A DNA stretch of 64,000 nucleotides, from NCBI GenBank assembly GCA_950106755.1, contig OX467082.1:24118001-24182000 (forward strand), written 5' to 3'. A program made the translations under genes and the position numbers. The notes below the pieces were generated by a model. It worked only from the letters and a program-made list of their open reading frames with translations. It did no database searches and had not been told where the DNA came from. The DNA comes from Climacium dendroides (taxonomy: Eukaryota; Streptophyta; Bryopsida; Hypnales; Climaciaceae). Positions 14,763-41,561 of this stretch are shown one piece after another (within the stretch, counting starts at the first letter, position 1; each line of letters starts with the position of its first letter).

Positions 14763-16263
14763 ATTCAGATCGACCCGACCTAAAAACCAGTACATGGAGC
14801 TTCTACATTTCATCTTCTATGTGTTTGATCTACTTGGACTCGGTTTGTTTTGCTTCTTACGCTTCAGGTCGACTCGACCTAAAGTTCTAGTCGGAATAAT
14901 CAAATATTTCTGCTACTGTGTTGTCCTCAATTTTATTGATTAATATTATCGGATCGTCCTAGTACGTATTGTTCTCACTTTGGAACTGGCATTTCAGGTC
15001 GGTTCGACCTGAATTGCATGCGGTAGTGTTATTATGTTTATTGTTGGTAAGTCGATGATTATTAGAAATGTGCCTTTTGGTCAATTTGTTAATTATACTA
15101 GGTGTTTAATATAGTCATGTAAATATGTATGTTGCTGAAGGGAATACATATTTGCTGTGCCAGATTGCAAAGGGTCTTCCTTGCAGTTCAGGTCGGACCG
15201 ACCTGATCTGCATTTAATTTTGACGATCACGTTATTTCTCATCTGGGATGTTAGTGACAATGTCTGCTACTCAGTTGCTTGCCTTGTGCTGACAATGCTA
15301 GTAGGTGTACACTTCAGGTCGGTCCGACCTGAAATGGATGTTCATCTCATGTCAACATTGTCCATGAAATAGCACAGACAAATGCAAAGATTTGGGAGAG
15401 GATATGAATTATGGGCCTCTACAATTCAGGTCGATGCGACCTGAATCGTAGTGAGGGTCATGTGACGTACATCACCGACATGTTAATGAACTTATTTATT
15501 TGTCCATTTGTTTATAAATAGGTGTCTAATATCGTGATAGTTATTAATTTGTTGGTCTTACAACTTATTTGACACGTCAGATTGCATAGGGTGTTCTCTG
15601 CAGTTCAGGTCGAACCGACCTGATCTGCATTTAATTTTGACGATCACGTTATTTCTCATCTGGAATGTTAGTGACAATGTCTGCTACTCAGTTGCTTGCC
15701 TTGTGCTGACAATTCTAGTAGGTGTACACTTCAGGTCGGTCCGACCTGAAATGGATGTTCATCTCATGTCAACATTGACCATGAAATAGCACAGACAAAT
15801 GCAAAGATTTGGGAGAGGATATGAATTATGGGCCTCTACAATTCAGGTCGATGCGACCTGAATCGTAGTGAGGGTCATGTGACGTACATCACCGACATGT
15901 TAATGAACTTATTTATTTGTCCATTTGTTTATAAATAGGTGTCTAATATCGTGATAGTTATTAATTTGTTGGTCTTACAAATTATTTGACACGTCAGATT
16001 GCATAGGGTGTTCTCTGCAGTTCAGGTCGGACCGACCTGATCTGCATTGAATTTGGACGACTTTGTTATTTGTCTTCTGACCTGTTAGTGCAATTCACTT
16101 CCATTTAGTTGCCTTCTTTGGAGAGAAAATGCTAGTAGGTGTGCATTTCAGGTCAGACCGACCTGAAATGCAGGTTTCTCTCATCTGAAAATTTTCTTGG
16201 AACTTGCCCGAACCTAGGATATATGCTTGAGGGGATATGCAATTCAGGTCGATGCGACCTGAA
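14763..16263. repeat. Left palindrome array of element A (12 copies)
   Basis: Twenty-one-base palindromes begin at 14763, 14863, 14993, 15187, 15313, 15425, 15604, 15730, 15842, 16021, 16147 and 16243. The half-site is TTCAGGTCGR with one central base. The array lies directly upstream of gene P, between its first coding exon and the central domain, so it is well placed to control P transcription or to serve as element-specific binding sites. Apart from the palindromes there is no gene in this stretch. Confidence 0.95.
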
Positions 16264-16280
16264 TTGCAGTTTCGTTCAGG
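15160..16280. repeat. 417-bp tandem triplication containing three palindromes per unit
   Basis: Palindromes at 15187/15604/16021, 15313/15730/16147 and 15425/15842/16243 repeat with an exact 417-bp period (401 for the last). Units 1 and 2 are nearly identical, including ATTTTGACGATCACGTTATT; unit 3 has diverged between the palindromes while the palindromes are kept. This suggests recent amplification of sites plus selection on the palindromes. Confidence 0.95.
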
Positions 16281-16413
16281 CGCCTTACATTCGTGGTACG
16301 TAAGTTTGACAAGATGATGCCCGGGTAGTATTGGGCTGATTTTGGGGAATTTGTGTGGTTGTGGCTGCTCATTTCTTTCCTTGACATTCTGGATTCTAAT
16401 TCGTAGACCTTCA

Positions 16414-16560
16414 GTAAACCCTAAACCCTATTTCTAAGCAATGGACCCTAAAAAAACCCTGGACCCTAGGCACTGAACCCTAAACAAACCCTGGAACTGA
16501 AGTACTGGACCCTAATCAATGAATGCCATTTTCTGAACCCTAAACCCTAAACGAAGTCCT
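16414..16560. repeat. Degenerate telomere-like CCCTAAA patch (A, left)
   Basis: Repeated AAACCCTAAACCCTA-like words with variants (GGACCCTAA, AACCCTGGA) mark the outer border of the left palindrome array. The strand has the C-rich motif. They are too degenerate to be a functional telomere. Confidence 0.8.
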
Positions 16561-18653
16561 GTGCATTATAATTCACCTTGGGAATTAAAAAATGAGGATC
16601 TTGAAATGCAATGCAGATGGATTAATCTCCTAAACCTGCAATATTATCCACATTTTCAACAAATTCAAGAGTTGAAAAAGCCAAAGAAATCAAAAACATC
16701 TTAAACCAGCAGACCACCTAAACCTAAAACCAAAAAGTCATTGTACAAACCTACAACATCCCAAACAAGCATGTTTCCATCTAGAATCTCCCAAACCATG
16801 AATTCTAACAGAAAACAACAAACCTCACGAGAACTAAAAAAGGAACGTTCGCTCACGATACATCCCGCAAGTTAAACCCCATTGGACATTGCAGCTAGCT
16901 TTACAACAATCACAGAAATCACTATTCAAAGTTGAGATGGTGCAAGAGAATTGAAATTAATACATACCTGAGTTTCTACAAACAAGCGCTATGCAACTTC
17001 AGCCTCAACTTAGCTCCTACTTTCAGTGTACCTGCTTATTATGGACTCCACAATCTTGTAACTCCAGTGCTACAATTGTCAATCTGAAATGCAAAAAACA
17101 AACCAATTTTAAAAAACTGACATTGCAAGCCAAATGCCAAGAAACAAACTGCAAACATATTTCAAGCAACCACATTCCTTCCAACAATTACAAATAAAGA
17201 TCCAATCTGTTGGGAGCAAATACCATCCAACAGAATACACAACTCTTATCTCCAGAAGCTCATTTTCTAGAATAAATTGTGCAACCACATGTGAGCAAGG
17301 AAAAACAAACAATGAAGTTCTAGATACTAACCTCGTTGTTGTTGTTGTAGCTTATCCACCAGTACCTATTCTTGGAAGTAGAATAAGGTTACACAACCTT
17401 GCGCTTGAGAACCTCGGCAAAGTGCTCTGGCACAATACAATCCCCACACAAGTACAATGAGGATTCACACAAGTAGCTGAATCCAACAATGTAGAAACGC
17501 AGACATGCATTTGTAGAAATGCACGCAGCTTGCAGAAATGCACGCAGCTTACAGAAATGCATCTTGTAGAAATGCACGCAGCTTGCATCTCATACAATGT
17601 AGAAATATCATCTTATGCATACAAATCATGAAATGTCGTGAAAGTACCTCCTCCATTATTTTGATTTCAAGACTTCAAAGGGTGGATTGAACAGTATTCC
17701 CAACACAAAGCAAATACAAAGCAAAAAAACCAATCCCAAACCCGAAGTGTCCAAAGAAGCAGAAGTGCCACTTTCAAATTAGTACCCTAAGAGGAACAGA
17801 GACTCAAATCTTGGAGGAATTGAGAAAAGACCCAAGAGAACCCTTAAACAGACCTAAACCCTTAAACATGCCTCAAGAGAACCATTGCACTAACACAACA
17901 GTGATGAATTGAGTCAGGTTTTTACCTCAAACTCCAAACCCTGCTTCAAGATGCACGTCCTTGAGATCAAGCTGCACCTCGTTCAGATGCAAACACACAG
18001 CACCAGCCAGCAGCTTCAAGTCCCCCCGATCGAATGGAACTCCATAATCACACAGAAAACAATGCTCAAGGTCCGCTTCTTCACGACGCCCGCCTTGAGG
18101 TTCGCTTCTTCACAGCTTCAAGTCCCCCCAATTGAATCGAACTCCAAAGTCACACACAATGCGGAAAACAAGGTCCTCTTCTTCACGACGCCCGTGCTAA
18201 AAAAAATACGTGTCCACTGCCGGCAAGTGGGAAATGCACAAACAACAAAGATGCAACAAAAATGCGTCCAAAGAACAGTGGAATGCACGAGAATATAGCG
18301 GAATGCACGAGAGAACAGTAGAGGAAACAACAGAGGGAACAACAGAGGTGCACAACAAAACAACGGACACGAAAATGCGCGGACACCAAACCCTAGGTTT
18401 CCAGACCTCTGCAGGCAAATACCCGGCGGTCTAGGTACCTGGTTCTTCCAGGTGGTTTTAGGTACCCGACCTTCTTCAATACCCGGCTTTGATACCCAAC
18501 CATCTTCAATACCCGTCCCAAGTACTTGGACCGTGATATATCCCTTTTTGTAGCCTCACATAATAATAGATACCCTTTTTCCAAAATTTGGTTTGTTTAT
18601 CATACTACTAAAATCATAAGTCTCTCTATAATATCACAAATGCTATCATTAAT
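16561..18653. other. Gene-free part of the central domain of A
   Basis: No supportable gene. The region contains short tandem runs of a GAAATGCACGCAGCTTGCA word (17510-17590) and a 102-bp direct duplication (18011-18112 and 18113-18200) carrying TTCTTCACGACGCCCG. The C-rich words AATACCCG and GGTACC recur at 18420-18520. Short open frames in all six phases have no common conservation with element B. Confidence 0.6.
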
Positions 18654-19247
18654 ACTAGGGGCTCATGCTTGCTATGCTACGCATTCATTGTATTACATAT
18701 TAGTAAAAATTTGATATATTTGAATAGATTGCATGATAATGATTTCAATAAGTCTGTAAAATAATTATTTTAAATATTATGTAAAAATATTGTCAATCAT
18801 GCATACATAGAAATTGTATTTTTACACAATGTGATATCATAGAAATAGAGTAGCTGTTTGCAATCACTTCTATAATATCACTTTTTACAAAGGGTGATAT
18901 TATAGAAATAATATAGTTGTTGCAATTAAGGTGATATTAGAGAGGATCCATATGATGATATTATAGAGAAGGCAAATCCATTGCTTCTCTTGGCTTTACA
19001 CTTCTTTGCATTTCTATGATTTTGTTCTATTGTGAGTTGTGAGTTTTCATGATTTCAATCTTCTATTGCTACTACTAAATAATTTTGAGAAATTCATTCA
19101 ATTGAAGTGATTTTGGATTCCAAAAGAATTAAGTTCTTCAGAAAGTTTTTGAGATTTTTATTTGAAGATTTATTTGAAAGTTTTACACAACAATTCTTAT
19201 AAAATTCTAATGATGAATGGATAGCATAGCAAGGGTTAGCGCCAACC
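18654..19247. mobile_element. Inverted-repeat element related to the AKR intron 3 insertion
   Basis: It begins ACTAGGGGCTCATGCTTGCT and ends near AGCATAGCAAGGGTTAGC, in reverse orientation to the elements at 48281-49139 and 62756-63616. The internal GTGATATTATAG words are shared. This copy is shorter and more diverged. No coding capacity. It lies nested in element A. Confidence 0.75.
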
Positions 19248-19329
19248 CATTTCTTGCTCTGCATTTTATCTAATACATAAAAATTCTACTGAAATTTTGA
19301 GGATGAATTCATCGGGTAGGATTTTAGGG

Positions 19330-21110
19330 TAAAATTATTTTAAAAGAACCGTATTGCTTTCCTACACTTCTTCAATTGAAATGGATTTCAAAACAAATAC
19401 TCTACAAATCATGTTGTATTTAATAAAACCCAAACCAATAAATTATATCAGTTTGACGTGCAAGCATGTCAACAATCGTAACACAGTCACAAGTTGCAAA
19501 TGTTCAAAATAATTAGGATTCATGGAAAAACTTAATTTTAAGACAACCCTATTGCTTTCGTACGCTGCCTTCTTCATTTGAAATGGATTTCAAAACAAAT
19601 ACTCTACAAATCATGCTGTATTTAATAGAACCCAAACCAATAGATTATATTGGTTTGACATGCAAGCATGTCAAGAATCGTAACACACAAGTTGCAAATG
19701 TTCAAAATAATTAGAATTCATGGAAAAACTTAATTTTAAGATAACCCTATTGCTTTCCGACGCTGTCTTCTTCATTTGAAATGGATTTCAAATGAAGAAC
19801 TACAAATCATGCTATATTTAATAGAACCCAAACCAATAAATTATATTGGTTTGACGTGCAAGCATGTCAAGAAACGTAACACACAAGTTGCAAATGTTCA
19901 AAATAATTAGGATTCATGGAAAAACTTAGTTTTAAGATAACCCTATTGCTTTCCTACGCTGCCTTCTTCATTTGAAATGGATTTTTAAAACAAATACTCT
20001 AAAAATCATGTTGTATTAAATAGAACCCAAACCAATAAATTCTATTGGTTTGACGTGCAAGCATGTCAAGAAACGTAACACACAAGTTGCAAATGTTCAA
20101 AATAATTAGAATTCATGGAAAAACTTAATTTTAAGATAACCCTATTGCTTTCCGACGCTGTCTTCTTCATTTGAAATGGATTTCAAATGAAGAACTACAA
20201 ATCATGTTGTATTTAATAGAACCCAAACCAATAAATTCTATTGGTTTGACGTGCAAGCATGTCAAGAATCGTAACACACAAGTTGCAAATGTTCAAAATA
20301 ATTAGAATTCATGGAAAAACTTAATTTTAAGATAACCCTATTGCTTTCCTACGCTGTCTTCTTCATTTGAAATGGATTTCAAATGAAGAACCACAAATCA
20401 TGATGTATTTAATAGAACCCAAACCATTAAATTCTATTGGTTTGACGTGCAAGCATGTCAAGAATCGTAACACACAAGTTGCAAATGTTCAAAATAATTA
20501 GAAATCATAGAAAAACTTAATTTTAAGATAACCCTATTGCTTTCCGACGCTGTCTTCTTCATTTGAAAGGGATTTCAAAAGAAGAACTACAAATCATGCT
20601 GTATTTAATAGAACCCAAACCAATAAATTATATTGGTTTGACGTGCAAGCATGTCAAGAAACGTAACACACAAGCTGCAAATGTTCAAAATAATTAGGAT
20701 TCATGGAAAAACTTAATTTTAAGATAACCCTATTGCTTTCCTACGTTGCCTTCTTCATTTGAAATGGATTTCAAAACAAATACTCTACAAATCATGTTGT
20801 ATTTAATAGAACCCAAACCAATAAATTATATTGGTTTGACGTGCAAGCATGTCAAGAATCGTAACACACAAGTTGCAAATGTTCAAAATAATTAGGATTC
20901 ATGGAAAAACTTAATTTTAAGACAACCCTATTGCTTCCCCACACTTTTTCAAATGAGTTTCCAAAAAAATACTGTAGTCTTGATGTTGTAATTAATACAA
21001 ACCAAACCATTAATTTGTATCGGTTTGACGTGGAAGCATGTCCGAAAAAATAACACAGAAGTTGCAAATCTCTGCGAAATAATTCGGATTCATGGAAAAA
21101 TTAATATTGC
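19330..21110. repeat. 197-bp AT-rich satellite array in the centre of A
   Basis: Eight to nine tandem units, marked by AACCCTATTGCTTTC at 19348 (variant), 19545, 19743, 19939, 20138, 20334, 20530, 20726 and 20934, with periods of 196-208 bp. Each unit carries GGTTTGACGTGCAAGCATGT. Middle units are the most alike; the last is diverged. No gene. Confidence 0.95.
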
Positions 21111-21245
21111 AAACATTATAAAAAGAATTTGAAAGTGCATGCAGTATAATTCCTTAGTATGTACTAAAACCTTGAATTCACTTCTAAATTAAATATTTGT
21201 TCAATATTTCAAAAACATGATATGAAATGATTTATTAATCTACAA

Positions 21246-21412
21246 AAATACCTGAACCCGAGACCCTAAACCCTAGAGACTCTAAACCGTAGAGACCCTA
21301 AACCCTAAAGATCCTAAACCCTGAAAACCCTAAACCCTAAACCCTAAAGACCCTAAACCCTAAAGACCCTAAACCCTAAAGACCCTAAACCCTAAACCAT
21401 AAAACCCTTATT
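21246..21412. repeat. Telomere-like CCCTAAA patch (A, right)
   Basis: About a dozen units of ACCCTAAA with inserted GA or AGA (GACCCTAAACCCTAAA). Together with the left patch it brackets the central domain of A. Element B has the same pair. Confidence 0.9.
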
Positions 21413-22337: not shown

Positions 22338-23204
22338 TTTAGGTCGAGTCGACCTGAATACGAACAACGGTACATGAGTAAATTTTAATGCACTTCAGGT
22401 CGAGTCGACCTGAATGTGAGGTTCTCTACATTAGTCATTCGTTCATGCAACTCAGGTCGAGTCGACCTGAATGTGAGGTTTTCTACATTAGTCATTCGTT
22501 CATGCAATTCAGGTCGAGTCGACCTGAACTGACACATATGATAGTAATTGAAGTAATGTAAAACGTATCCTAGGTAGATTGAATTGTTCTGTCATTGAAT
22601 ATCATTTATGAAATGGTATTCATGGCAATTCAGATCGAGTCGACCTAAACCGTATCTATAATTGTAATTTCATTCAAGTGAAAATCTCATAGATGTCCTG
22701 CTGAAATTCTCGATATTCACAGATTCAATCACCAAGAATTCTGTACGTAATGATAATAGTGTGCAGATATGATTCGGCTCACTGCAAGTCCTCATTTCAG
22801 GTCGGTTCGACCTGAAGTGTGGGTACTCTTATCCCAGACTTCAGTTCGAGAAGTTCGAGATTTATAAAGGAATAAAATTGGGAATTCCCTGTACAATTGA
22901 TCAGATGAAGATGAGTTCATTATCTCAGAATACAAAGGACACTTCAGGTCGATCCGACCTAAAGTTCAGGATTGTACTCAGTCTTCTTACATTTATATTT
23001 TCCGCTAACAAAAATTATACAAGGCCAGGGTTCAGACACTCCAGGTCGATTCGACCTGAAAACAAAGTTTACATATATCTGAATTTATAAGAAATTTTAA
23101 TGAATGATGTCAATTGCAGTTGAAACCTAGGCTTCACAGAATAAGTTCGTTGGTGTCATAGATGTACCTATAACATTTGGTGATTCAGGTCGGGTCGACC
23201 TGAA
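22338..23204. repeat. Right palindrome array of element A (9 copies)
   Basis: Palindromes start at 22338, 22394, 22451, 22508, 22629, 22796, 22943, 23040 and 23184. Most are TTCAGGTCGA, one base, reverse complement. The first four are 56-57 bp apart, with spacer duplications. The array lies immediately upstream of the first coding exon of T, mirroring the left array before P. Confidence 0.95.
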
Positions 23205-23275
23205 CATGAATGAAATTGCATGATCTATGCTGCAATTCACTTACCCTATTTCACATTGCATTTTTACAGGTATCC

Positions 23276-26167
23276 ATGGATACTATAGATGACTCTGATG
23301 ACATGAACATATCATCGGGTTCTGAATCCAGTGAATTCAGACATGATGAAGAGGATTTCATGGCATCTTCAGAAGACGAATTTCAAAATGTCGAAGCAAT
23401 GAATGTTGGGGTCCCAGAATGCGAAGGTCTACCGCGTCGGCTTTGGAATACTCGAGTTGTCACCTTGTACAATGAGGCTGGAGTGCTTGTGGGTGAAGGT
23501 GTCTGTCATAGTGTGAACTCTGACCTCGTTTTGGGTGCCAATGGCCCTCTTGGTGACACCCACGTGGCGATCCACATCTCCAAAACACATAGCGAAGAAG
23601 ACCTACCAGAGGAACAAGTGTGCTCATTGTTGGCTTGGCCTATTCATCTTGTCCACTGTCGTGGAGCTAGCCTTAGAGACCATGAGGCTAGGGACAAATT
23701 CAATTGTCTCCAACAGGCTCTCTTAAATCCGCCCTCTTCGACGTCTTCGAGACCATACACAAGTATGGTCCGAAATGCGCCCCGTGAAACAAATTTGAAA
23801 TCGAAGGAGTTGCTTACTCAAGATTCCATCCATGCAGTGTCTACTAAAATATGTTGTAGTCGCAACTGTGTTCAGCCATTTCCTAGGGATAAGATTCGAG
23901 CCTTTCGTGAACGCATGTATCGCAACTCCACGTTCAAACACAGGACCTACATGAAAATGGATGTGCATAGGCAGGTGCATGTTGACGAGCGTGGTAGACG
24001 AATGGTGTCAATTGACAATACACCGGTATGTATGCGAGCGTGGATGCATATAGCTGGGGTCCCTGAGGCCACATTCTATCGCTACCAATCGTACATGAGG
24101 CGTGGTCGAGAGGCAAAGGACCATGGCAATAAGGGAACGGTGAAACCGAGGAAACACACTCAACAAGCTATAGCAACATTGAAGTGCATTCTGGAGAAAG
24201 AGGCAGATCACATGCCTCATCGTACGAAGACCCTGAAGTCAGGAGAGAAAGTTGTGGCCAAGATCCTACCTTCCACCTTCCAGTGGAAGGGTAAGATGAA
24301 AGAACTCAATGATGTCAATGCTGTTTTTGGACTGAGTGAGGTGTCAGCTTCGAACTTGAGTAAGATTAGGTGCTGTAAGTTCCCTGAGTATGAGGTGAAG
24401 AAGCCTGGAGACAATTTTGCGCGATGTGGCACATGTGACAAATTGCAAGACCTCAAGAAGGGTGCTATAAGTGGGTCTCACAATGAATTAAAATATTCTC
24501 GGAAGTTGGATAGGCACAATGAGATTGCTCGAGCTCATCGAGAGTTGTATTATGCAAACCGTCATCGTTCAGTAGCTTTTCCACACGAATGCCTCACAGT
24601 TATGCATGACAAGATGGATCATGCAAAGACTGCTTCTCCAGTCTTTTCCCACAGGAGTAAGGAGCTTGATGGCCTTGTGAAATTGTCTGTGTCTGTCACT
24701 GGCATGATTGCTCATGGTCATGGAGATGTACGTTACGCACATTATGGTTTGGATCTCTTTAAACACGATTCAAACTATACAATTGGTTCTATGGCAAAGT
24801 TGTTGCGGGATCTGGAATTGCCATCGAAGTCTTCTTCTCGGCAATTATTTTCTGGGTCAGGGTCTTCAAATTTGTTCAGGGCAATGCTGCAGGGTAAAGA
24901 AATGTGCGACGCGTCACTGCCACCACCTCCAATGAATGCAGTTCCAGCAGTGCCTTTGCCTCCTATTTTGAATGTGCAAATGGACAATGCCACCGGCGAC
25001 AACAAGAATAGATATGTTTTCTGTTTCTGGTCTCTACTTGTTGCTAACAAGATCTTCAGAGAAGTGTATGTCAACTTCATGATTGTTGGTCACACACACG
25101 ACGACATTGACGCATTGTTTGGAAGATGGAGCATGCTGTTGAAGAAGGAGAACTTCCCAACAATCCCGGCGCTCATGAAGTCATTCATGGATGTTGAGTC
25201 TATTCCTACTATCCCTCACCTCATAGAGGAGGTGCCTGATTTCAAGCGTTTCATTGCAGGAAAATGGATGGATGGTGATGAAATCCTTGTGGGACACACA
25301 AGACCGCAACAAGTGAAGTTCTACCTAGACTCTGTTGGATGCCCAGTCATGAAGTACAAGTTGAAGTGCACGGATGAAAACTGGTTAGGCAGGCACGGTC
25401 AAGCCATTAAGTTGTGGAAAGAAGACGATGAAGGACGGAGTCTGTGGCCACGTGGTGTGCCTTTGCCAGTACCACTCAACCCAATGAAAGGTGTCCATGA
25501 CATTGTTAAAGGTTTATCAAGATTCATAAACTATTGGGACGACTTGTGTAGAGCAGACGTGAGTGGAGAACATCGTAGGCGCTATGAGAATGTGGTGCGC
25601 TATTGGCGTGGTGTAAAGGCAGCTCTTCAAGAGCCCCTTCCTACTTCTAATGCTCTAAAAGATGGTTTCTGGCCAACTACTCGTATTCAAGTGACAGAAG
25701 CTGACCATTTAGACAAAGATGGTGAAGATCTCGAAGAGCATGGAGAGGATGAGCCTTATGTTGGGCCCTTGAGGGATCGTCCACAACCATCCTTTAGGGT
25801 GGCTCGAGATGTATACGAAGGGTATTTTGTTGCAGTTCGCCTTGCAGACGGTGACAGCAGACCAGTTTGGATTGCCAGAGCATTGTCTGATCCAAACTCT
25901 AACCCCGAGAAACCAAACTGTGTGCACATTCAATAGTTTCGGCCAACATCACGCAATCAAGAAGTTCAAGACTTCTATGAAGGATGGGATAGTGATAGAG
26001 GTTTGCTTTGGAAGGTTGATGAAACCGAAGAACCTGCGTGGGAGACAACAAACGCTTTAATTACAGCATGGAAGTCTCAAAACAGAAGAGGAACTCGCCA
26101 ATGCAGAATCAAGATCCCTACAGTTCAAATCGAAATCATCAACCAGAGTTTGGCTTCATATACATGA
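23276..26167 (+). pseudogene. Gene T: DUF7869-type protein, candidate transposase (copy A), one in-frame stop
   Basis: The start ATG at 23276 lies just after an acceptor (TTTTTACAG), as in copy B; the 5' leader is probably spliced. The frame encodes 963 residues but TAG at 25934-25936 (Tyr in B) cuts the last 77. Domains: acidic N-terminus; a small beta-rich domain (VGEGVCHSVNSDLVLG) near residue 80; a Cys-rich FRERMYRN-TFKHR block; RCGTCDKL near 385; then a probable RNase H-like core with HDKMDH (D445/D448), MDNATGDNKN (D570) and GHTHDDIDALFGR (D609/D610). The spacing of acidic residues suits a DDE/D nuclease. A C-terminal chromo/Tudor-like YFVAVRLADGDSRPVWIA segment follows. It is the best candidate for the mobilising enzyme. 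Confidence 0.8.
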
Positions 26168-27084
26168 TATGGAGAAATCATGTACATACATTGGATGCAT
26201 TTTAACTATGACATTCATATGGAGGGTATTGTTTTATTTCTACATCTTATATGAAGTTGTTTTTCATTGCATAAGTGTTGGACCCTTAATATTATAATAG
26301 ATGATAGTCGTTTCAGTTTTTTTTAGAGGATATAGGTTTCCGTTGATTGATTCTATTTTAGTGTTTAATACTGCATGATTGTTTTCAAGTGTATGTTTTG
26401 TGTTTACAAAACAATGGAATTTAAATACAGTCTTTAATATATATATATATATATATATATATTTTATTTTTGAGCTATATTTTCTCTATTTTTTAATTCA
26501 TTTTCTTATTTGTGTATCACTAAATATATTTTATTTGAAATTACATTGCTATTGGAGAAAAAAATGTAGTGGATATATCCACTATTTATTTGGTTAACAT
26601 GTAAAGCACTTGTCACATTCTGGGTAGGGGGTTGGTTGGTTGTTACAACTTTTCTGCCGGCAAAGCTCACTTAGTAGCACCAAGTCATGTTTTTTCTCTC
26701 TAGCTCATACAAACCCAATGGGAATCGAACCCGGACTGCTTCAATGAGATGAACAACCCCTTACAACCAACCGCAGAGCTTATGACTTGGTGTTCAAAAG
26801 ATGTCATTCTCTTCACTTATATAAATCAAAACATATACCCTAAAGCAAACTTCATGTATTTGAATAGTCCATCACTAAAAAGACTCTCATTTTAATGGAA
26901 ATTGTGTATTACAACTAGCAAAGTTAGTATTTGCCCACCTAAACTACTTAACATTACAATTCACTTTTTAGGGCCTAAATGGAAAATATTATTATGAGAG
27001 GCCCTAAACCTCTCAAAATATTGAATATTGTGTTGTTTGGGGTAGGTTCGCGTCGTCCGGGGTAGATTCAGGAAGACAAGTTTT
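26168..27084. other. 3' flank of T and inner right end of A
   Basis: No gene. It holds an (AT)n tract at 26436-26463, a tRNA-like SINE candidate, and the subterminal motif ACTCTCATTTTAATG at 26882, which is the inverted counterpart of the motif at 7699. Confidence 0.6.
26625..26800 (-). mobile_element. Possible tRNA-derived SINE
   Basis: Read on the minus strand, TAAGCTCTGCGGTTGG resembles a Pol III A box and GGGTTCGATTCCC is a perfect B box about 45 bases downstream. The pair is enclosed by the inverted words CACCAAGTCAT/ATGACTTGGTG and GGTTGGTTGT/ACAACCAACC. There is no cloverleaf, so it is not a functional tRNA. A tRNA-headed SINE fragment is the likeliest explanation. Confidence 0.4.
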
Positions 27085-27408
27085 AGGTTTGGGCCCGTCC
27101 GACCCGTCCGACCCGTCCATCCGCGCGGTCGACCCCGACCGCCCCGTGGTCTGCGTCCGTCTGGTCGGTCGGCCCCGTCTGCCCTATCCGTGCGGTTGGC
27201 TCCGTCCGCCCCGTGCTCCGCATCCGTCCGCTCAGTCGGCCCTGTCTGCCCCGTCCTCGCCATCCGACCGCTCGGTCGGCTCACTGAACCGGCCGACCGC
27301 TCGTCCATTGGACGGGCACAAGTCCGAAATTTCTATATCCCCGGACGCTCAAAAACCCGTGGACGCAGACGTTGGACGTCCGGGCGTCCCAGCGTCTGTG
27401 CAACCCTG
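27085..27408. repeat. Right terminal inverted repeat and GC-rich block of A
   Basis: Rich in CCGTCCG, CCGACCG and GACCCGTCC words, ending GGACGTCC ... CAACCCTG. It mirrors the left end in word content. The 8-bp end is exact; the next 60 bp are alike around CCGGACGTCCA. Confidence 0.85.
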
Positions 27409-27416
27409 TTGGCAGG
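27409..27416. repeat. Target site duplication, right (TTGGCAGG)
   Basis: Exact copy of 7383-7390. It sits in exon 2 of gene P of element B. Confidence 0.95.
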
Positions 27417-28662
27417 TCTGGACTTTGGAGAAAAATGAGCGGTACTTTCCTCAGCGCCCTTGCCGAATTCGCTGGGAGATCATAAAGTCTCTCATTTTTC
27501 GCTGGGTAGTAATCGGAGAAACTCCGATTATATGTGCGTAAGACCTCATTTTTCTCAACGAACCCGAGGACTTGAGATAAGTCGGTCTCGTCCTCGACGA
27601 TGAACAACCAGGTCTTGACTTCTTCAAGCAGAGGTTCCTTCATTTGTTGTTGAGACATTAGTACTTCCAGGAAGAACGGCTTCTCCATCGTGGAGTTCTC
27701 CTTTTCCAGCACTCCGGGAATCGATCGAAAATCGATCACTCCCAAACCGATCAAGCTCACTGTCTCCGGCGTCCAAACATCCGCCGGCCAGTTCTCGTGT
27801 GTGTTGTAACGTATGCTGTAAGGACGCAAATGTGCGACCGACGAAGGAATGTGAAATTGGTTCTTCTTTTCCAGGAAGACTTTGAAGAAGGTCTCTATCT
27901 TGGGATTGATGGTTGCTGCTATCTTATTTCTCCCTCGGGTTTGCTTGGTCATCGAAAAATATACCTCACCCGGCCTTTCGAGCAACAGATTCATCGTTGC
28001 ACTAGTGAAGCAGCGGCTCCTCTTGAACTGTCGCCAGTTCTCTGGAATGAGCTCATTCCTTGCATTGAACAAGTTGAGTTCTGGGCAGATTAGGTGAATC
28101 TCTTTTTTCACCATCTTCTCCCACTTCACTCTCTCCACCCATTCCTTGGCGCTATAGCAATCTTGTACAACCGTGGACACCAGTTTGATTGTCACTTTCG
28201 GATATGGGTGGTGGCAACTTGGGCCAGAGCGATTGAGAATGTGCTTCGCCAATTTCTTCATATTGTCGTAGCTCAGATTTCCAAGGGGCCTGAAGAAGTC
28301 TCTGCTCATCGCGCAGCTTTCTTGTTTCTAGTTCTCCTTCTCATTGAACTTCATCTTCGTCTCTGGATCGATGAGCTCCCCGTGTGCAGCACTGATGATA
28401 ACTTCGCTCCAAACCTCGTAAACGTCATCGGGCGCAGAAATTATTTTCAGTTCGTTTGTAAGCTTCAGCTTCTCGTCTGCACCCTTCTTCTTTGAGATCG
28501 TGAAGCTTTTATTCACGTCAATCATGGCGAATCTGAGATTAACTACCTTTTCAAAACTCTGCACAAGGATTGACCAAATTCATTAACTTATAATCTTATC
28601 ATAAACTACACTTCAGAAGGAGCTCTCTCAGAGAGCAAGTACAAAATTGTAAGCATATGCAG

Positions 28663-28683
28663 TTTAGGGCGGTCTGCCCTAAA
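28663..28683. repeat. Palindrome in P intron 1 (copy B)
   Basis: Half-site TTTAGGGCGG with one mismatch in the other arm. On the minus strand it begins about eight bases after the exon 1 donor GTAAGC, the same offset as in element A. Confidence 0.85.
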
Positions 28684-30170
28684 ATGCTTACCTTGTACTT
28701 TTGCGTTAGCGCAGTATGGGCTTTGCCTCGTTCTGAGGGTCCACCAATTTTGTCTCCTTTCGGAGGTGCCGGTCTTCCCATGGAAACCCACACAGTCCTT
28801 GCTCCCAAGATATTTGTTGCCCAAGATGGCGTAGCAGGTTGAAAGTGGTTGGTCCGATTATAGTATGCGGAGATTGTCCTCAACATCTCCTTATCGAGTG
28901 ACCAAACCACGTAGCATTTCCAGGTTCTGAAGTGTTTTTTCACTTCTTCGTTCACCATGCTTTCCTCTTGCATCATCAGGTGGCTTGCAGCTACGCTGTG
29001 CTGGCCATTGATGATGTAGAAGTCTCCGTCCATCACCTCCTCCCATCGAGGTGGATCTCTTTTGCCTTTTGGCAAGACCGGTGTGACACAAAGAATTTGC
29101 TTCACGCTCTTGTTTGGCATGTTGACAAGATAATGGAGCATCTCTTTAACAATTTTGTCCTCCTTCACGCGTATGTTGAGTTCGGCAGGTGCCTCCTTCA
29201 ATTTTCCAATCGGCAACTCTTTCTTCTCACCAACTCCGTAGATAAACGCGGTGGAGTACTTCTCCTAGAAGTTCTTGTACAGAGCGCTTATATCTTTGTA
29301 GTTTGGCTTCCGCTCTGTCTTAAGGGCTTCCGGAACGACATTCATTTCTTCGAGATAGCTTGCCGACTCCACGCCTGACTGCTCCGATGTCCTCTCCACT
29401 GCCTTCCTTGCTGACCCGGATGCCAGCGGACTGCTTTGAGGTGCTGTTGCTGGAGATGGTGGGGGCTTCCTGTTTTTCTTGCCTTTACTTTGTGACCCAG
29501 CAGCCTTCTTCCCCGTTGATGGTTGACCTTCATCTTGAATAGCTGTCTCAACGGATACCGTCCGTGGAGCCATGAAGGATCTTTGCATTGCTATCTTCTC
29601 TTTGATGACTACGAAGGAGTTCATCAGGAGCGTGATCTTCGTGCATAGTCTGCTTTCCGTCAATGGAGTTCCGTCCATGTTGTGGTACTCGCCACTGTCT
29701 ATTTTGCGCTCCAACTCTTTGATCTCCAATCTGTATGGCGTTGGCTCTAGACTCTCCAAGAATGGCGATATGTTGAACCAAATTTTTTCTGAGTTCAAGA
29801 GTAATGTGAAGTGGTACTGATTGCCCGCTGGGAATTCGTTGTTGGTGGTGACGCAGTGAATTTTGATAATAGGGAATTTATCCGTAGACACTCGCTTCAC
29901 TTTCTCGTCAAATGAGATCAGCAGATACGTCTTTGAATTCCGGTACTTCATGTTGAAGTGCATGTTGTCTGTATGGGGCACCATCTTCAGACACCACGCG
30001 TCCACCTCTTTTGGATTTTCGAACTCCCACCAGTCCCCTTCTATCATATCCTCGTCTACATTTGGACTTTCTTCTTCAACATCCTCTACTCTTTTGAAGT
30101 GCGCCTTGAGTTGATCCATGTATTCCTCCATTCTGCGCATGGACAATTAGAATTCAGTCTATTGTTGCGG

Positions 30171-30851
30171 TTTAGGACGGACCGAGCTAAACTGTTGCTA
30201 GACGTAGACGCACATTTTTCTTGTTGATATTTCGTAAGGCAATTGTGATTACGCCATTATTTATTTTTGATTTTGTAGTCTTTTGTTTGTTGGCTACGTT
30301 TCTGTATTAGTCTGCAGATTAGGGCGATCCGCCCTAAACTACTGGGATTATTCTTTGGTTTGTAAGCTATTTTGTTTAATTAGTATAAGAGCCATTGAGT
30401 TTTAGAAGTATTTTATCTACCAATCATCACTGAATTTCTTCAATGTGTCTGATTTCTTTAATCATTTTATGGTAATGTCTATGCTTCTATCGTCAGTGTA
30501 GTGCTTTGGAGTGCAGTTTAGGGCGGTCCGTCCTAACTTGCACATGGACTATATTTTTTATTTTTCAGCGTAGCATATGCATAGGGTTCATCAATTCACG
30601 TGATTTAGAGAAATGTAGTTTAGGACGGTCCGCCCTAAATTGTGCATGGACTACATTTTTGATTCCTTACCGAGTTAGCGTACCTTATATGTAGAGTTTA
30701 TGAGTTCTTATTATGAACAAAAATTCAATTAAGGATGGTCCGCACTAAATTGCGCATGGACGACATTTTTGATTTATCAACGTAGCATATATATAGGATT
30801 GATCAATCCTCATGATCTACAGAAATGCAGTTTAGGACGGTCCGCCCTAAA
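30171..30851. repeat. Left palindrome array of element B (6 copies)
   Basis: Palindromes start at 30171, 30318, 30517, 30619, 30729 and 30831, consensus half-site TTTAGGRCGG, one central T, reverse complement. They lie directly upstream of gene P. Around them the motif GTGCATGGACTACATTTTTGA recurs in part (30540, 30645, 30757), indicating a roughly 105-bp tandem origin. Confidence 0.95.
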
Positions 30852-31009
30852 TTGCAGACGTTCTATTTCCGACTTTGCACTCAATAGCCGCTTGATATCC
30901 GGGGATATCTAGGTGATACCCGCCTAAGACCCGGAGATATCATGGTCATATCCGTCAAATTCTATGCGAGGGTTAACACGTTCTTTAGCTGTAAAGCTTG
31001 ATAATTAGA

Positions 31010-31078
31010 ACCCTAAACCCTAAACCTCTAATACTAAACCCTAAACCCTAAATCCCTTAAACCCTTAAACCTAAACCA
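31010..31078. repeat. Telomere-like CCCTAAA patch (B, left)
   Basis: Six to seven units of CCCTAAA with small variations, just outside the left palindrome array, at the place corresponding to 16414-16560 in A. Confidence 0.9.
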
Positions 31079-33120
31079 TTTATTAACATCCAATGCAGAA
31101 GTCCTGACCTGCCAAATAACACAATGATAGGTTTTTGATACTTATCTCCTTCCACAAATGAAAAAATCCTCAAAGCTGCTACCACAAACGTATTCAAATC
31201 ACACTGCTGCAAATCCAAGAGTGCAAAACAAGGAGTGAGAAAACAAGAAAAGTAGAATTGCAACTACTTAGTCACATGTAATTTGGGAGACACGCAATTG
31301 ATTCGTCCCCAAGTTCAACAGAATTGCAACATCCAGATGCAATTGAAACCAGTGCTCCCAATTGTTTTCCACCATTCTATAAATAAAAATGAAACCCACA
31401 AGCATCCCACAACCCACAATCCACAAGCATTCCACAACCCACAACCCACAAGCATCCCACAACCTACAACCCACAACCCACAAGCATCCCACAACCCACA
31501 ACCCACAAGCATATGACCTAAAATTGCACCACAGAATCCTTAAAATTCAATCACACGGAAACAAAACTCTAATACAGCATAGCATCTAATATGAATCTCA
31601 TCAAGCAAGGAACCAGCAACTTGTGAAATTAGCACTGTCTGGCAATTTCTAGCAGCTTGAATTTAGGTAAAAAAAGCGTGAAAAAAGATTGGCAAAGTAC
31701 CTGTTGAAACGAGGAATTCTGATTTTGTGCCTCCCACTTCACAACTGAAGTATGTCGCAGACAGTAGGTGCAGTTCAAGTGTAGCTCGCACCAGCTTGCA
31801 CCAAGCTTGGTACCTCGCAGCAAGCACCTCGCACCTCGGACGTTGCACATCGCACCTTGCAGCAAACACCAAGCACCTCGCGCAGCAAGCACCTCGCACC
31901 TCGCGCAGCAAGCACCTCGCACCTCTCACCTCAGACAGCACCTCGCACCTCGCATAGCAAGTGCAACTCAAAGAACAGCTGCATCCTAAACCTCGCACCG
32001 CAACAGCAGATGCAACTCAGACAGCAGGTGCAACCCTAAACCTCACACCGAGTACCAAGCACCGAGCACAACAATAGCAAGTGCAACCCTTAACCTTGCA
32101 CAAAGGATTCAACACCAAGCACCAAGTACGAAGCAATCAAGCACCAAGCAGCAAGCAATCCGCACGTCGCACCTCGCAGCAAGCACCAAGCACCGAGCAC
32201 AGCAACAACAAGTGCAACCCTTAACCTTGCACAAAGGATCCAGCACCAAGCACCAAGTACGAAGCAATCAAGCACCAAGCACCAAGCAAGCAAGCAGTAC
32301 GAGCACCAAGCAGCAAGCAAGCAAGCAGTACGAGCACCAAGCAGCAAACACCTCGCAGCAAGCACCAAGCAGCAAGCACCTCGCACCTCTCACCTTAGAC
32401 AGCACCTCGCACCTCGCATAGCAAGTGCAACTCAAAAAATAGCTGCATCCTAAACCTCACACCGAGCACCAAGCACCGAGCACAGCAACAGCAAGTGCAA
32501 CCCTTAACCTTGCACAAAGGATCCAGCACCAAGCACCAAGTACGAAGCAATCAAGCACCAAGCAGCAAGCACCAAGCAGCACGCAATCTGCACGTCGTAC
32601 CTCGCAGCAAGCACCAAGCAGTACGCAATCCGCACGTCGCACCTCGCAACAAGCACCAAGCAGCAAGCAATCCGCACCTACCACCTTGCAATTTCAAATT
32701 TTGAGCATTCCTCACAGCTCTCTCGCCGCGCTCCTTCGCTGCAACCCAGGCGGCCAACAAACCTCTCCACAATGACCTAAACCCTAAACCTCAACGAAGA
32801 AACTGAACCCTAAACCAAACCAACAAAACTAACAAAGCTAGCAAATGCGCTGACCCAAACCCCCGCTCGGCGAAAGGAGGGTGACAACCGACCGGGGCTA
32901 CACTGAGCCTCCAACCAGGGTCGGTATTAGGTTTGGACTTAGGGTTGGTATTAGGTTCAACTACCGAGGCTACAAGGTCGGGAACCAAATCCACAGGGTC
33001 GGCAACTGAGGCCGTAGGGTTGGACGTCGGTGCTACGGGTTTTTTTTCCATTTTTGAAGAAGTGCCATATTGGCAATATAAAAAATGATATTGGTTTTCC
33101 AAATTGCAACATTTATCCAT
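31079..33120. repeat. Central domain of B, left half: minisatellites
   Basis: No gene. There is a short tandem array of ACAACCCACAAGCATCCC at 31390-31512, then a long irregular minisatellite at 31800-32700 built of AGCACCAAGCAGCAAGCA and CACCTCGCACCTCGCA words, with larger copies of TGCAACCCTTAACCTTGCAC at about 32080, 32212 and 32495. A small CCCTAAA patch occurs at 32776-32815. Open frames here are repeat artefacts. Confidence 0.85.
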
Positions 33121-36100
33121 TTAAGGGAGCCAACCCATTTTGACCACTTAAGCCGTTTGGACTATTTGCACGGCTGATTTTTTCAAAACTTTCATTTCTA
33201 CAAGTTTCGAAAGAGGCATTACAATGTAGGCATAATTTTTTAGATGTTTTTTTGCAACATGAAATTATTGAGAACTTTAGTGGAAAATGGGCTTTCTTCT
33301 ATTCTGATGATATAGCCCATTATCTTTCCAACAATTTTGATTGCAATATTGAAACTCTCCTAAGCCAATTATATAGTACGACAAGTGCATAGAAAGTTGT
33401 GCCATATGTAATTGCTTCAAATTTTTTGTGCACAGTCAAAAAGGCAATGGTCTATACTACCAGAATGGGATGTCGGTTATAAATGGGTTGCCTCTTGTAT
33501 TAGATGTATGGTATGGTTTTCATCCACAATTGGGCAATTTCATGTAATATATTTTTATATTTCAAAGTTGTCTAGCAATTTCATCCACTTTTTCTAGCAT
33601 TTTTTATAATCTTTTTTAGGGCAATCCTTCCTTTTCATAAATCATAACAATCTTGCCCACTTAGAAGTTGAACTTTGCATGAATAAAAAAAAATGGGAAT
33701 AGAATGGGCCCTCCCCTTGAATGGTCCAAATCCTTCAAATGTCTTGCAATAATTAAAAAAGAATGCTCAAATAAATTTAAAGCAACTTGAAATTCATGCT
33801 ACACATTGGATTCTACATTAATTCTCAATGCTAGCCCATTTAGGAGTTAATTTACATGTGAAAAGGAAGGATTGCCAAGGATACGGCCGTTGTACCTTAA
33901 CGGTTCAAAATTAAAAAGGTCATGGAATTTTGTAAGTGATTGCTCAAATTTTGATCAAGCAAGTTGTAAATAGTGGTACAAGCGACATCGTGCATTCATT
34001 TTCAATCTTGCCCACTTAGAAGTTGAACTTTGCATGAATAAAAAAAAATGGGAATAGAATGGGCCCTCCCCTTGAATGGTGTATTCTATTCAAATCATGG
34101 CCTTATGGAATGAATTCATAAAATGGTAAATAAAATATATATTAGTACAAGTTATGAATTAGATGAACTTTAAGATTTTATAATAAAAAGCACTACTAGT
34201 GCTTCTTTTATACATTTTTGCAAGCAAGAATAATATGTAATTCAATAACTCATGTGCTGTAGTATAGAAATACTAAAGTCCAGAAACCATGATGTATATG
34301 AAAATAATCAAACGCAAAAGACATGTACAAGTTGCATACTAATTGAACATTTAGATTTCATGATAAAACATTATTGATGGTCATTTCATTCATTTTAACA
34401 CGCAAAAGAATTCTAATTGAATAAGTCATGTGCTGTAGTTTACAAATAATGAAGCCCAAAAGCCATGACATATATGAAAATAATAAATAAACGAAATACA
34501 TGTACAAGTTGCATACTAGATGAACATCTAGATTTCATGATAAAACAATATTAAAGGTCCTTTTATGCATTTTTACATGCAAAAGAACTTCTAATTGAAT
34601 AACTCATGTGCTGTAGTTTACAAATAATAAAGTTGAAAAGCCATGACATATATGAAAATAATAAAACCCAAATACATGTACGAGTTGCATACTAAATGAG
34701 CAATTTAGATTTCATAATAAAACGAAACTAATGTTCCTTCTAGGCACTTGGAGACATGCCAAAACAAATTAATTGCAATAAATGATATTGAGAGACTTCG
34801 AATTTTTATCCATATGAAATTGTAGTTCCATTTCGAATAATTAAAAGGTATGAAAAAAAAATATATTACAATCTACAAATCTATATTTATTGGGTTGAAT
34901 TCAAAGAATCTTGTTACAAATCTTGAACCCAAATTTAAAATTAGGAAAATTCCAATTCATTTTATTGATTAAAAAATTGTTGAGAAGAATTTATTACATT
35001 GGTCCACCGATCCACGATGCCAACACTAGCTCTAAGCGTTATTACAAGTGTATATTATTTGAGTCTGGAAAGCTACAAAAAAAGGTTTTGCACGCAAGCA
35101 CATAAATATGGTGCAAGTTGTAAACGTTTTGAATTCTCAAATTCCATGGATTGAGCGTTCAGACGTCCAACTCATTTTTGAAGAAGTAAATAAAACCTTA
35201 AAATTTTAATGTACTACAGATGCCTTTCAAATTTTGACTACTTTCTATAGATAACTAAGAAAATATCTTGCATGATTGGTGGCACATTTCAAATAATTAT
35301 AGTGCTAGTGCCTTCATGATTGAATGGCACTTGCGAGTGTGAATTACCATAATGTAAATTTATAATTTATAATTGAGAGTGTGATGTGAATGCAAGGTGG
35401 ACTCCACCATGATGGGTTTCCCTAATTTATCATTTCAATAATTAATGTTCTTCACTTCAAGAGATGACCTCACCTTTTGCCACTTCCAAAGTTCATTGTA
35501 TGTGTCAATCACCCAAATTTTCAGTTAAAAATGATTGTTTAGTCATGTGTTTATGTTTAAAGAAGTTGAAAAGTCCGTCATATAGGATCTTCATACACCA
35601 TAATTATTATTTAGTGCAATAGGAAAGTCCTCTGCAAAGGGTGTTCATGATTCCATTGAACATGCAAAAAAATATACAATTACATAATTTTTAACATGAG
35701 TACCAAATGCATCTTTCATTTTATGTGCTTATCTTTCTACATTCTCATGTGGAATGTAAAAATTCACGTAGTACATTGTAAAAAAACAAAAAATTATTTT
35801 ATTTATTGTATGTGTACTTTATTTTCAATATAATGCTCAGAACTAATTTGAATATAATGCCCACAACTAATTTGAACTTCCTTAATGAAAATTTTGAGTA
35901 TTCACGTTAAAAATTTCATGACATTTTAAATTTTGGACATCTTTAGTCTAGTGGCCATGAAACGTGTACATGATTTATTAAATGGGCAAGCATTGACAAT
36001 TTGCTTGGAATCCAATGCATAACTTTAGTTACAGTAATTTTTGGCTTTGCCAAGGATACTAATTGATTTATTGTATGTCTTCCATAATGTTCTATTATTT

Positions 36101-36306
36101 TAAACAAAAAGAGTAATTCATGGACTTCTACATTTTTTTAACTACTCAAACCCATTTGAAAAAGTATCAATTAATTTTTTTTAAGTTCATTTGTAAGGCT
36201 TTGGTTTATGCCAAAGTGTTAAAACTTTTTTTTTCCAGTTTTTTCAATGTTTATGTATGTATGCTTTTTTCGAATGTTGAACATTTAATCCACATTTTTA
36301 ACATTG
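33121..36306. other. Central domain of B, right half: AT-rich, no gene
   Basis: A 72-bp direct repeat (ACTTAGAAGTTGAACTTTGC onward) lies at about 33650 and 34007. Four tandem units of about 177 bp start near 34146, 34323, 34500 and 34676, marked by ACATGTACAAGTTGCATACT and CATGTGCTGTAGT. From 34800 to 36300 I see only AT-rich sequence. Confidence 0.75.
34145..34800. repeat. 177-bp AT-rich tandem repeat in the centre of B
   Basis: Three and a half to four units with a period of about 177 bp. They occupy the same relative place as the 197-bp satellite of element A but show no clear sequence similarity to it. Confidence 0.85.
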
Positions 36307-36357
36307 GACCCTATACCCTAAACCCTAAATCCTAAACCCTAAACCCTAAACCCTAAA
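36307..36357. repeat. Telomere-like CCCTAAA patch (B, right)
   Basis: Six units of the type CCCTAAA, nearly regular, on the inner side of the T leader. It corresponds to 21246-21412 in A. Confidence 0.92.
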
Positions 36358-37311
36358 GCATTGTTTACATTTTGTACACCAACATTCATAAACAAAGAGA
36401 TTTTATTTTTAAAATGCAAAGTCAACAAAGTTACAAAAGTTCAATACATTCTTTGCACATGCATTGTTGCGTGGCAAGGAAAAGGAAGGAGAGAATGTCT
36501 CACCTACTTCTGGAAATCTTTAATGTTAGACAAAAAATCGCACGCAAAATTTGCTTTGTCAACACTGTGATTTGCGAAAAAAATTTCCAGTAGTTGACTT
36601 TGCAAATCCGCAAACACCTGAAATAGGCTTGAATTTGAAGTAAGCACTGTCAAGTGGACGACTATTTTTCTAATGAAAGACTGCACGAACTTCTTCCAAA
36701 GATCGTGTGACCTGAAAAAGTGCTACAAAGTGGAAAACGAATCTCCCGAAAAAGAATTTGAAATTTGAATTCATTTTGTTTTGGCGTGGCCCCCTTCCGG
36801 CGCCAAAACTTTGCTCCCCCCGGTGTGGGTGGCCGGGTGCTTTGTGTATGCGCGTTGAGATTGTTAGTGTCGTTCTCATTCTCATTTGGCTTTTCTTATG
36901 TAATCGTGAACCTGTTCAAGCTCTCTGTTATTCATTGTTGTCATTTTCTTCTGTTGTGGTTTGAACACAATTGGACGAGGCGTTCTGCAGTTCAAGGTGC
37001 GCTTTGCGTACAACCAACAGATGAAAGCATTTTCTTTGTCCAGACATTTGTAGCACTCCAGTACTTTGTGCATAGTCATAGAACGCAACAGATTTCAAGT
37101 TCGACAGAGTTCTCCTCTTCTTCTTGAACATTTTAATTTCGTATTGAGGAATTTGTATTGTGCTCATACATTTTCAAGTACAAGTTCAGTTTTAAGTCAT
37201 CATATTGAATTCAATTTCTGCGGTATGAATAGGTACCCTGGTTTGTAGCTGTAAAATCCGGGGTCTATATTTAGAAACTTCAGTGGGCTACATGTTTTTG
37301 AAGACGTGCAA
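36358..37311 (+). promoter_or_regulatory. Probable promoter and leader region of gene T (B)
   Basis: No conserved ORF. A GC-rich stretch at 36780-36850 (GGCGCCAAAACTTTGC, GGGTGGCCGGGTGC) interrupts AT-rich sequence, comparable in position with 21700-21800 of A. Likely the start of a spliced leader of T; inference from position only. Confidence 0.35.
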
Positions 37312-38441
37312 TTTAGGACGGTCCGTCCTAAAACACAAGTAGACCATGTCATGACTTGTATTTCATATCGAGCATATAACGTTTTTGTAAGAAGTGCAGT
37401 TTAGGTCGGTCCGACCTAAACTGCACTGCGATGGGAAATAATTTTATGAATATGACAACAAAATACAATAGCACTGAATCCAATTTCCTTGACCCTATTC
37501 ATGTAGTTTAGGGCGGTCCGCCCTAAATTGCAGATTGACAAACCTAAATATTTTCTGAAGACTTGAATAAGTTGGGGTTTCTAATAAATAATCACAAAAT
37601 TAACAGTTTGGATATGCACTTTAGGTCGGTCCACCCTAAAATGCAATGCATCAACGCCTTAATTTATATTCTATATAGTAAAAAATTTATTAGTGGGACG
37701 AGCAGTTTAGGTTGGTCCGCCCTAAATTGCAATGCATCATTTACCCACTGAAATGAAGACAATTTATATTTACGCTATATATACTGTCATTGCAGTTTAG
37801 GGCGGTCCGTCCTAAACTACATATTGACAAACCTGAATGTTTTAGAAGCATTAACTAGGTAGGTATTGCTATATCTTCAATACACGGAAAGTCCGGACAT
37901 ACACTTTAGGACGGTCCGCCCTAAATTGCATTGCAATAGTTTTTTATTGCACAACAGTGAACAAAGCAGGTTCTTGTTCAATTTAGAAAGGACTTCGACT
38001 ACCTTCACGCAGTTTCTACCGGTCATGCAGTTTAGGGAGGTCCGCCCTAAAATACACTTCTTCCTTGTTCAATTTATAGGGTTTCAGCATGTCGAGTCTG
38101 GAATATTTCACACTATGTTCATGCAGTTTAGGTAGGTTCGCCCTAAATTGAAATGCCACAATTTTTGTACTTAAGAAATAAAATATGAGGGGATGTCTTA
38201 TTTAGTTTCTAAAATCTGACAAAGTGGTCATGCTATTAGCCTCAAAGCGCCACACCATTGATATTAACAGATTAAGAAAATGAATCAGGTCTGCGGCATC
38301 TGTGTTCAGAAAATTTCACACTACTGTGAAGCAGATAAGGGTTGTTAGCCGTACAGTGATCATTTATTTCGATCAGATTGGTCTTCATTGATCTAGAACT
38401 TTGTCTGTCTAGTTGTGCAGTTTAGGGAGGTCCGCCCTAAA
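37312..38441. repeat. Right palindrome array of element B (10 copies)
   Basis: Starts at 37312, 37400, 37507, 37620, 37706, 37796, 37905, 38031, 38127 and 38421, with 85-125-bp spacing except the last. Half-sites are TTTAGGGCGG, TTTAGGACGG, TTTAGGTCGG and TTTAGGGAGG. Some arms carry single mismatches, but the TTTAGG/CCTAAA ends are almost always kept. Gene T starts 100 bp downstream. Confidence 0.95.
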
Positions 38442-38543
38442 CTGCATTTATATAAATTAAAAAATTACATTAAATAAAATTTGACAGGTCTTTCTTTATC
38501 TATTAATTTTCTATTCCAATTGTGGTTTATGGTTACAGATAAT

Positions 38544-41381: not shown

Positions 41382-41561
41382 GAAGCCATATGTACATAAG
41401 GGTATATGTGGTATGCTTTATTTTGTATTTTCCATCCACATATTCTGTGTAATGGATGGAATTTATATATTGCAGTAGATGGCATATACTTTAATTATGT
41501 TGGGTTGGATTTATAGTTTGGTATTGTTTATATGCTTTGAAATGTAGCTTTTGTTTTTACA

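Follow-up and report, generated by a model that had tools for sequence, protein, structure and literature searches.

Element-specific palindromes in nested DNA transposons of the moss Climacium dendroides and a ParB-like protein as their candidate reader

Introduction

It is an open question how selfish elements, on splitting into families, give their own regulators new targets; VANC in Arabidopsis is a well-known case. VANC proteins bind family-specific motifs in the non-coding DNA of VANDAL elements (PMC5735166, PMC10398659). Transposons of algae (Sola1-1_Ec32 of Ectocarpus and elements of green and red algae) carry ParB-like and DNA methyltransferase accessory proteins, and it has been suggested that the ParB-like protein binds the element which encodes it and modifies its DNA (PMC12477816). 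For ParB and Noc a switch of the palindromic word between relatives has been described (PMC7383237), and fungal KDZ and other transposons carry TET/JBP genes (PMC12730594). Here, a stretch of 64,000 bp from the genome of the moss Climacium dendroides, called the window in the following (contig C1, OX467082.1, positions 24118001-24182000), was analysed, in which transposon A lies nested inside transposon B and both carry 21-bp palindromes with element-specific half-sites. The label P is used for the DUF7869 protein of these elements and the label Q for their minus-strand multi-exon protein.

As in the VANDAL elements, the motifs are short, are confined to non-coding parts, such as introns and upstream DNA, often in tandem repeats, and differ between related families; unlike the VANC motifs in the cited descriptions, which are 8-9 bp long and in the case of VANC21 occur in one orientation, those of the moss are 21-31-bp palindromes of fixed frame with a candidate reader of ParB fold (PMC5735166, PMC10398659). 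A MULE domain was not detected by Pfam in 20 open reading frames of the window or in 15 Q homologues, and P matches DUF7869 only. The moss elements share with Sola1-1_Ec32, as described in the cited passage, a large size (21.5 kb there) and a ParB-like protein encoded opposite the transposase strand, and they differ in that DUF7869 is found in the presumed transposase, the target site is duplicated over 8 bp, the catalytic methyltransferase motif IV was not found in Q and an FCP1-like domain is joined to it; candidate binding sites are identified here, while that passage names none (PMC12477816). The bacterial ParB-parS, Noc-NBS and KorB-operator systems likewise combine a ParB-type fold with dimers on palindromes; the moss system differs by its eukaryotic transposon, its 21-bp sites with an odd centre and the lack of a GxRR box. 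The fungal TET/JBP carriers are also DNA transposons with a gene whose product can affect DNA methylation, but the proteins are others and a palindromic code is unmentioned in the part of that report concerned (PMC12730594). Literature searches, which covered open-licence papers, listed no earlier description of a palindromic code for elements of this kind.

Materials and methods

The genome searched was a 412.6-Mb assembly of 123 contigs. Sites in the window were called at up to four mismatches from the A or B consensus. Chance expectation was assessed with five Markov-simulated windows for the window scan and with reversed patterns for the genome scan, and half-site words were searched genome-wide within the TT-N5-CGR frame. 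For the comparison of loci (L numbers) 20 stretches were fetched, 16 of them around listed A-type sites. In a second, type-blind test loci were picked by similarity of P, without regard to sites. Loci L001-L004 and L026 were dropped from the type counts as overlaps. Exon ends were placed by eye, without transcripts.

Results and discussion

Element-specific palindromes in the window

The window contains 54 palindromes of 10+1+10 bp, 29 in element A, 22 in element B and 3 in a further copy, C, in agreement with the about 30 and 22 counted for A and B in an earlier interpretation made from the DNA letters (the sequence-only reading). All 29 sites of A and all 3 of C are A-type (half-site TTCAGGTCGR); those of B comprise 19 B-type sites (TTTAGGRCGG), 2 ties and 1 site nearer to A. 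The half-site type thus follows the element, as had been claimed (Fisher P = 1e-12, 2 ties and the 3 C sites left out). The simulated windows gave no A-type and 0-1 B-type matches. The elements lie as follows.

7391-27408, no strand assigned: element A, nested transposon with ends CAGGGTTG...CAACCCTG and GC-rich imperfect terminal repeats
2950-7390, no strand assigned: left part of element B, truncated on its left side at about 2947, where copy C adjoins
27409-43300, no strand assigned: right part of element B, whose right end was not found in the window

Element A is flanked by an 8-bp target-site duplication, TTGGCAGG (7383-7390 and 27409-27416), and is inserted in an exon of the Q gene of B; when the flanks are joined without A, the reading frame of B is restored. 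Terminal inverted ends, duplication and empty site, as they characterize a DNA transposon, are therefore all present at this insertion. Copy C, left of 2950, matches an inverted part of A at 93% identity. Because A is nested inside B, the half-site types can be compared across a real boundary, and the type tracks the element through the nesting, with A-type sites inside A and, apart from the one site nearer to A and the two ties, B-type sites in B on both sides of it. The nesting also explains why the sites span 1991-38441 and not, as had been supposed, 14763-38441. They are grouped as follows, all without strand.

14764-16263: A-type array adjoining Q exon 1, 12 sites, partly within a 417-bp tandem repeat
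22338-23204: A-type array adjoining P exon 1, 9 sites
8655-13264: A-type sites outside the arrays, in Q introns and downstream non-coding DNA (8655, 8771, 8827, 11459, 11557, 11622, 13087, 13244)
30171-30851: B-type array adjoining Q exon 1, 6 sites
37312-38441: B-type array adjoining P exon 1, 10 sites including 1 tie
4242-7161: B sites in a Q intron and further 3' (4242, a tie; 4419; 6944; 7051; 7141, nearer A)
28663: B site, intronic once the splice donor is set at 28692

The arrays described next to the first exons of both genes and the intronic sites were confirmed; of the intergenic spacers that had also been named, the central ones of A and B hold no site. Within 1 kb of the ends of A no palindrome was found either, and terminal transposase sites were rejected on this basis. 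None of the 51 sites of A and B falls in a placed exon, against an expected coding share of 36.5% (P ~1e-10); in a rougher exon table 1 of the 51 sites, 28663, counted as coding until the donor was placed at 28692. In the intron after Q exon 2 a site stands just behind the splice donor in both A and B, with letters specific to the element.

The sequence-only reading had held both the length and the central base to be fixed. The length is constant, but the centre base varies in A (T9, C7, G7, A6) and in B (T19, A3). In B the half-site reaches outward to TGCAR-TTTAGGNCGG, giving a 31-bp palindrome, and the A palindromes have a weaker TxCA flank. At permissive positions the two arms carry the same letter in 10 cases against 8.3 expected in B and in 16 against 13.3 in A; such nearly independent variation is as for a protein dimer of which each subunit reads one half-site.

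The family code across the genome

In the whole genome, A-type sites were found at 4754 places (at most two mismatches; reversed control 0) and B-type sites at 1882 places (at most one mismatch; reversed control 0). A third word, T-type (TTATCNTCGA), which was first met upstream of a diverged P adjoining an A copy, occurs at 14,421 places (at most two mismatches; reversed control 3). A chance origin of the palindromes was rejected by these controls together with the simulated windows. In order to find a fourth word, position 5 of the frame was set to A or T, which excludes A, B and T; 899 places were obtained against 235 in the control, and 23 of the 26 places with letters displayed were palindromes of the kind TTYAACTCGR (type D), some with one imperfect arm. 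The A, B, T and D words have the frame TT-N5-CGR in common and differ in the middle bases. With C or G at position 4 the count was 48 places against 149 in the control, and at positions 4-5 it was 4 against 1 for TG and 0 against 2 for AC; as these counts are little or nothing above control, no abundant further word exists in those classes.

Among the 16 stretches fetched at A-type sites, 12 contained P, 3 Q only and 1 neither (L019, with one A-type site). Sites common outside the elements had been named beforehand as a contrary outcome, and in this partial check 15 of 16 stretches held P or Q. In 13 of the 20 fetched stretches P is 84-98% identical to that of A, and there 118 of 118 classified palindromes belong to the A type. 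That A-type sites are present follows from the selection of the stretches; the identity of P and the absence of other types do not. At the loci chosen blind to type, 10 copies of the B-family P (of 52 scored) were accompanied by 88 B-type sites and 1 A-type site among 89 classified palindromes, and the best 8 P0035-like copies (of 49 scored) by 67 T-type sites among 67, with no A- or B-type site; these counts leave out palindromes that contain CG and match none of the A, B and T words, of which there were 7 at the 8 T loci and none at the 10 B loci. Furthermore, a P0024-like P at C1:23110544 has four places with the D pattern 353-789 bp upstream of it, which are typed by pattern only as their letters were masked. 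The types were therefore not mixed at random among copies, the other contrary outcome named, apart from two mixed loci that are weighed below, and the rule holds across P families beyond the window. In a FastTree phylogeny of P, the A copies, the B copy of the window and the T copies stand on separate branches. Between the T copies L038 and L044, which lie on either side of a deep split, 20 of 20 printed upstream blastn matches fall on palindromes, so that in this one T pair the sites persist where the intervening DNA no longer aligns. As a pattern, the family code, with element-specific words in one symmetrical frame, is well supported.

T-type sites often occur in two clusters 5-8 kb apart (C1:7818965-7825741, 8006211-8014209 and 14739681-14746096). 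In each of these three regions one cluster favours C and the other A or G at position 6.

The divergent genes P and Q

P and Q are divergent in A, in B and in 25 listed pairs, and both A and B contain Q as well as palindromes. The genes and gene parts of the window are the following.

23210-25936, plus strand: P of A, DUF7869 protein, probable transposase (Pfam PF25273, E 3.7e-41; in-frame stop at 25934-25936)
38478-41381, plus strand: P of B, DUF7869 protein (Pfam PF25273, E 6.8e-43; long open reading frame 38784-41381, 5' part from 38478)
10386-14713, minus strand: Q of A, 4 exons with approximate ends and frameshifts
28693-30146, minus strand: exons 1 and 2 of Q of B, interrupted by an in-frame stop at 29265-29267 and comprising the N-terminal and the ParB-like domain (INGQHS)
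27417-28558, minus strand: first part of exon 3 of Q of B, with a second in-frame stop, resuming at 7390-7180 past the A insertion
7180-7390, minus strand: second part of exon 3 of Q of B, methyltransferase motif-I-like FAGSK
6015-6896, minus strand: exon 4 of Q of B, acidic and coiled-coil-like
8946-9749, minus strand: NIF/FCP1-like phosphatase domain of A (Pfam PF03031, E 4e-13)
4620-5300, minus strand: NIF/FCP1-like phosphatase domain of B (Pfam PF03031, E 4e-16)

P is likely the transposase; of its 120 listed relatives, those with a name belong to two mosses, Physcomitrium patens and Ceratodon purpureus. Q of A consists of an N-terminal domain, the ParB-like domain, a methyltransferase-like remnant and a coiled-coil-like part. 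An N-terminal fold of ParB/Srx type was found in the model of a Q homologue. In ParB proteins the DNA-reading helices follow this fold and the nucleotide-binding box is of GxRR type. Where this box would sit, N-G-Q-H-S-V at 376-381 is invariant or nearly so across 44 sequences. Among 23 Q homologues or fragments, 16 show a stretch resembling methyltransferase motif I.

The FCP1-like domain and Q form one chain in some annotated moss homologues. Its motif reads DLDG in B, DFNG in A and DLNG in all 8 homologues that show the motif; with DFNG or DLNG in place of DLDG, phosphatase activity may, to judge from sequence, have been lost in many copies. At C3:15063155-15151555 four Q copies of equal score are spaced by exactly 29,031 bp, which reflects either tandem multiplication of a whole element or a feature of the assembly.

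Q as the candidate reader and the alternatives

It is proposed, with about even confidence, that the palindromes serve as operators to which the ParB-like Q encoded by the same element binds as a dimer. The fixed frame of the half-site, outer TT and centre-side CGR, would position the two Q subunits, and the five bases between them would be the family-specific word that Q reads. With arrays before both genes and further sites in its own introns, Q would be loaded along the element that encodes it and would pass over relatives. Its likely task would be a self-recognition that keeps the two promoters of the element active, or tuned, against host silencing, by a logic resembling that of VANC, the acting protein being here of ParB type and joined to an FCP1-like domain. 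Binding of the sites by Q, its use of nucleotide, spreading and anti-silencing are inferences, as is the existence of a separate Q in the T and D families. The sequence-only reading had expected a dimeric, element-encoded binding protein that co-evolves with its sites; the symmetrical, element-specific code was found as expected, and co-evolution of binder and sites may be its cause. P or a protein "T" had been named as candidates, of which "T" could not be matched. P is not favoured, because the ends of A are free of palindromes and Q has the ParB/Noc fold, whose family binds palindromes as dimers; Q is thus the most likely reader and P its main rival.

If the assumption is extended to a eukaryotic analogue of ParB-parS, a tentative idea that is on the whole doubtful, each family would possess tens of parS-like nucleation sites at which a ParB-like clamp loads, from which it spreads, and by which it marks the element as self and keeps it open, the five-base word having been switched as families split. 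One genome would then hold a readable series of specificity changes with at least 4 words at ~20,000 sites. Apart from this extension, thousands of sites with at least 4 words in one fixed frame and a candidate reader of known fold are at hand in a single genome, by which the stepwise change of a protein-DNA code becomes testable in vitro and by comparison of copies. A binding target would also be supplied for the ParB-like accessory proteins of algal transposons.

Several observations weigh against Q as the reader. The best Foldseek hit of the Q model in the PDB has an E-value of 1.1e-3, with none at or below 1e-3, Pfam and PDB sequence searches with Q gave no ParB match, and after residue 431 the homologue model is mostly below a predicted local distance difference test (pLDDT) score of 50. 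A GxRR-type box was not found in Q: NGQHS is present in 16 of 23 sequences and the other 7, mostly fragments, lack such a box, so that nucleotide binding by Q appears doubtful from its sequence. In the window, stops or frameshifts disrupt P of A as well as the Q copies of A and B. With 95 of 1035 Q candidates scored, three P copies of T families had a listed Q within 20 kb, two convergent, one tandem and none divergent, and the P beside D-type sites at C1:23110544 had no listed Q within this distance; the lack of a divergent Q beside T- and D-type families lowers the confidence in Q and raises that in P. As to the code itself, L018, fetched at an A-type site, is mixed with 6 B-type and 2 A-type palindromes, and L034 is mixed through 1 A-type palindrome. 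For a T-family P at C1:5193346, exact T sites are absent within 3 kb and the closest one listed is 5.7 kb upstream, and the large P0024-like group (989-aa open frames) is without a word matched to the group.

The strongest alternative, judged unlikely, is that P reads the palindromes as internal transposase-binding sites, for which the subterminal repeats of Ac or Spm are a parallel. P shows good conservation, with a mean column identity of 59% in 25 sequences, the site type tracks the P families, beside T- and D-type sites P was observed and Q was not, and in its modelled N-terminal half short helices may bind DNA; the model as a whole has no clear fold match, which is neutral in this question. 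The palindrome-free kilobase at each end of A and the sites in Q introns far from the ends argue against P.

Binding of a host factor, with the palindromes captured by the elements as enhancers, would suit their promoter-proximal and intronic placing, but is improbable in view of at least 4 different core words, each of which belonged to a single element family at the loci examined, and of P or Q being found in nearly all stretches fetched at A-type sites. To a similarly small degree it can be assumed that Q, resembling a ParB-methyltransferase fusion, modifies the sites and that the mark labels the element as self in the manner of restriction-modification. Proteins combining ParB and methyltransferase are reported from algal transposons in the passage cited above (PMC12477816). 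The motif-I-like stretch of the Q homologues and the CpG in each half-site are in line with such a modification, whereas [DNS]PP[YFWH] was found in 0 of 23 sequences, several of which are fragments. This pattern is the catalytic motif IV of methyltransferases. Finally, an action of the palindromes as hairpins or cruciforms in RNA or DNA, or as small mobile palindromes, and not as protein sites, although consistent with the near-perfect symmetry and with some sites lying in introns and tandem repeats, is highly improbable given the fixed TT and CGR frame, the orderly family code and the nearly independent arms, on which hairpins were rejected.

Further features of the window

The ends of A (7391-7700 and 27050-27408) are rich in GGACG/GGTCGG repeats, and a subterminal ATTAAAATGAGAG lies inside both ends (7699 and 26884) as well as at 2960, near the lost left end of B; at the ends of A both are candidate transposase sites. 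Tracts of the plant telomere unit AAACCCT are present in the central spacers of A (21261-21408) and B (31009-31084). Additionally, the spacer of A contains a 196-bp tandem array of about 9 copies (19337-21105) with a 21-bp AT-rich palindrome of its own, AACCAATAAATTNTATTGGTT, a close variant of which is present in several other A stretches. A direct repeat of 5.4 kb with 96% identity (44183-49523 and 58598-64000) contains a 26-bp unit three times in each copy.

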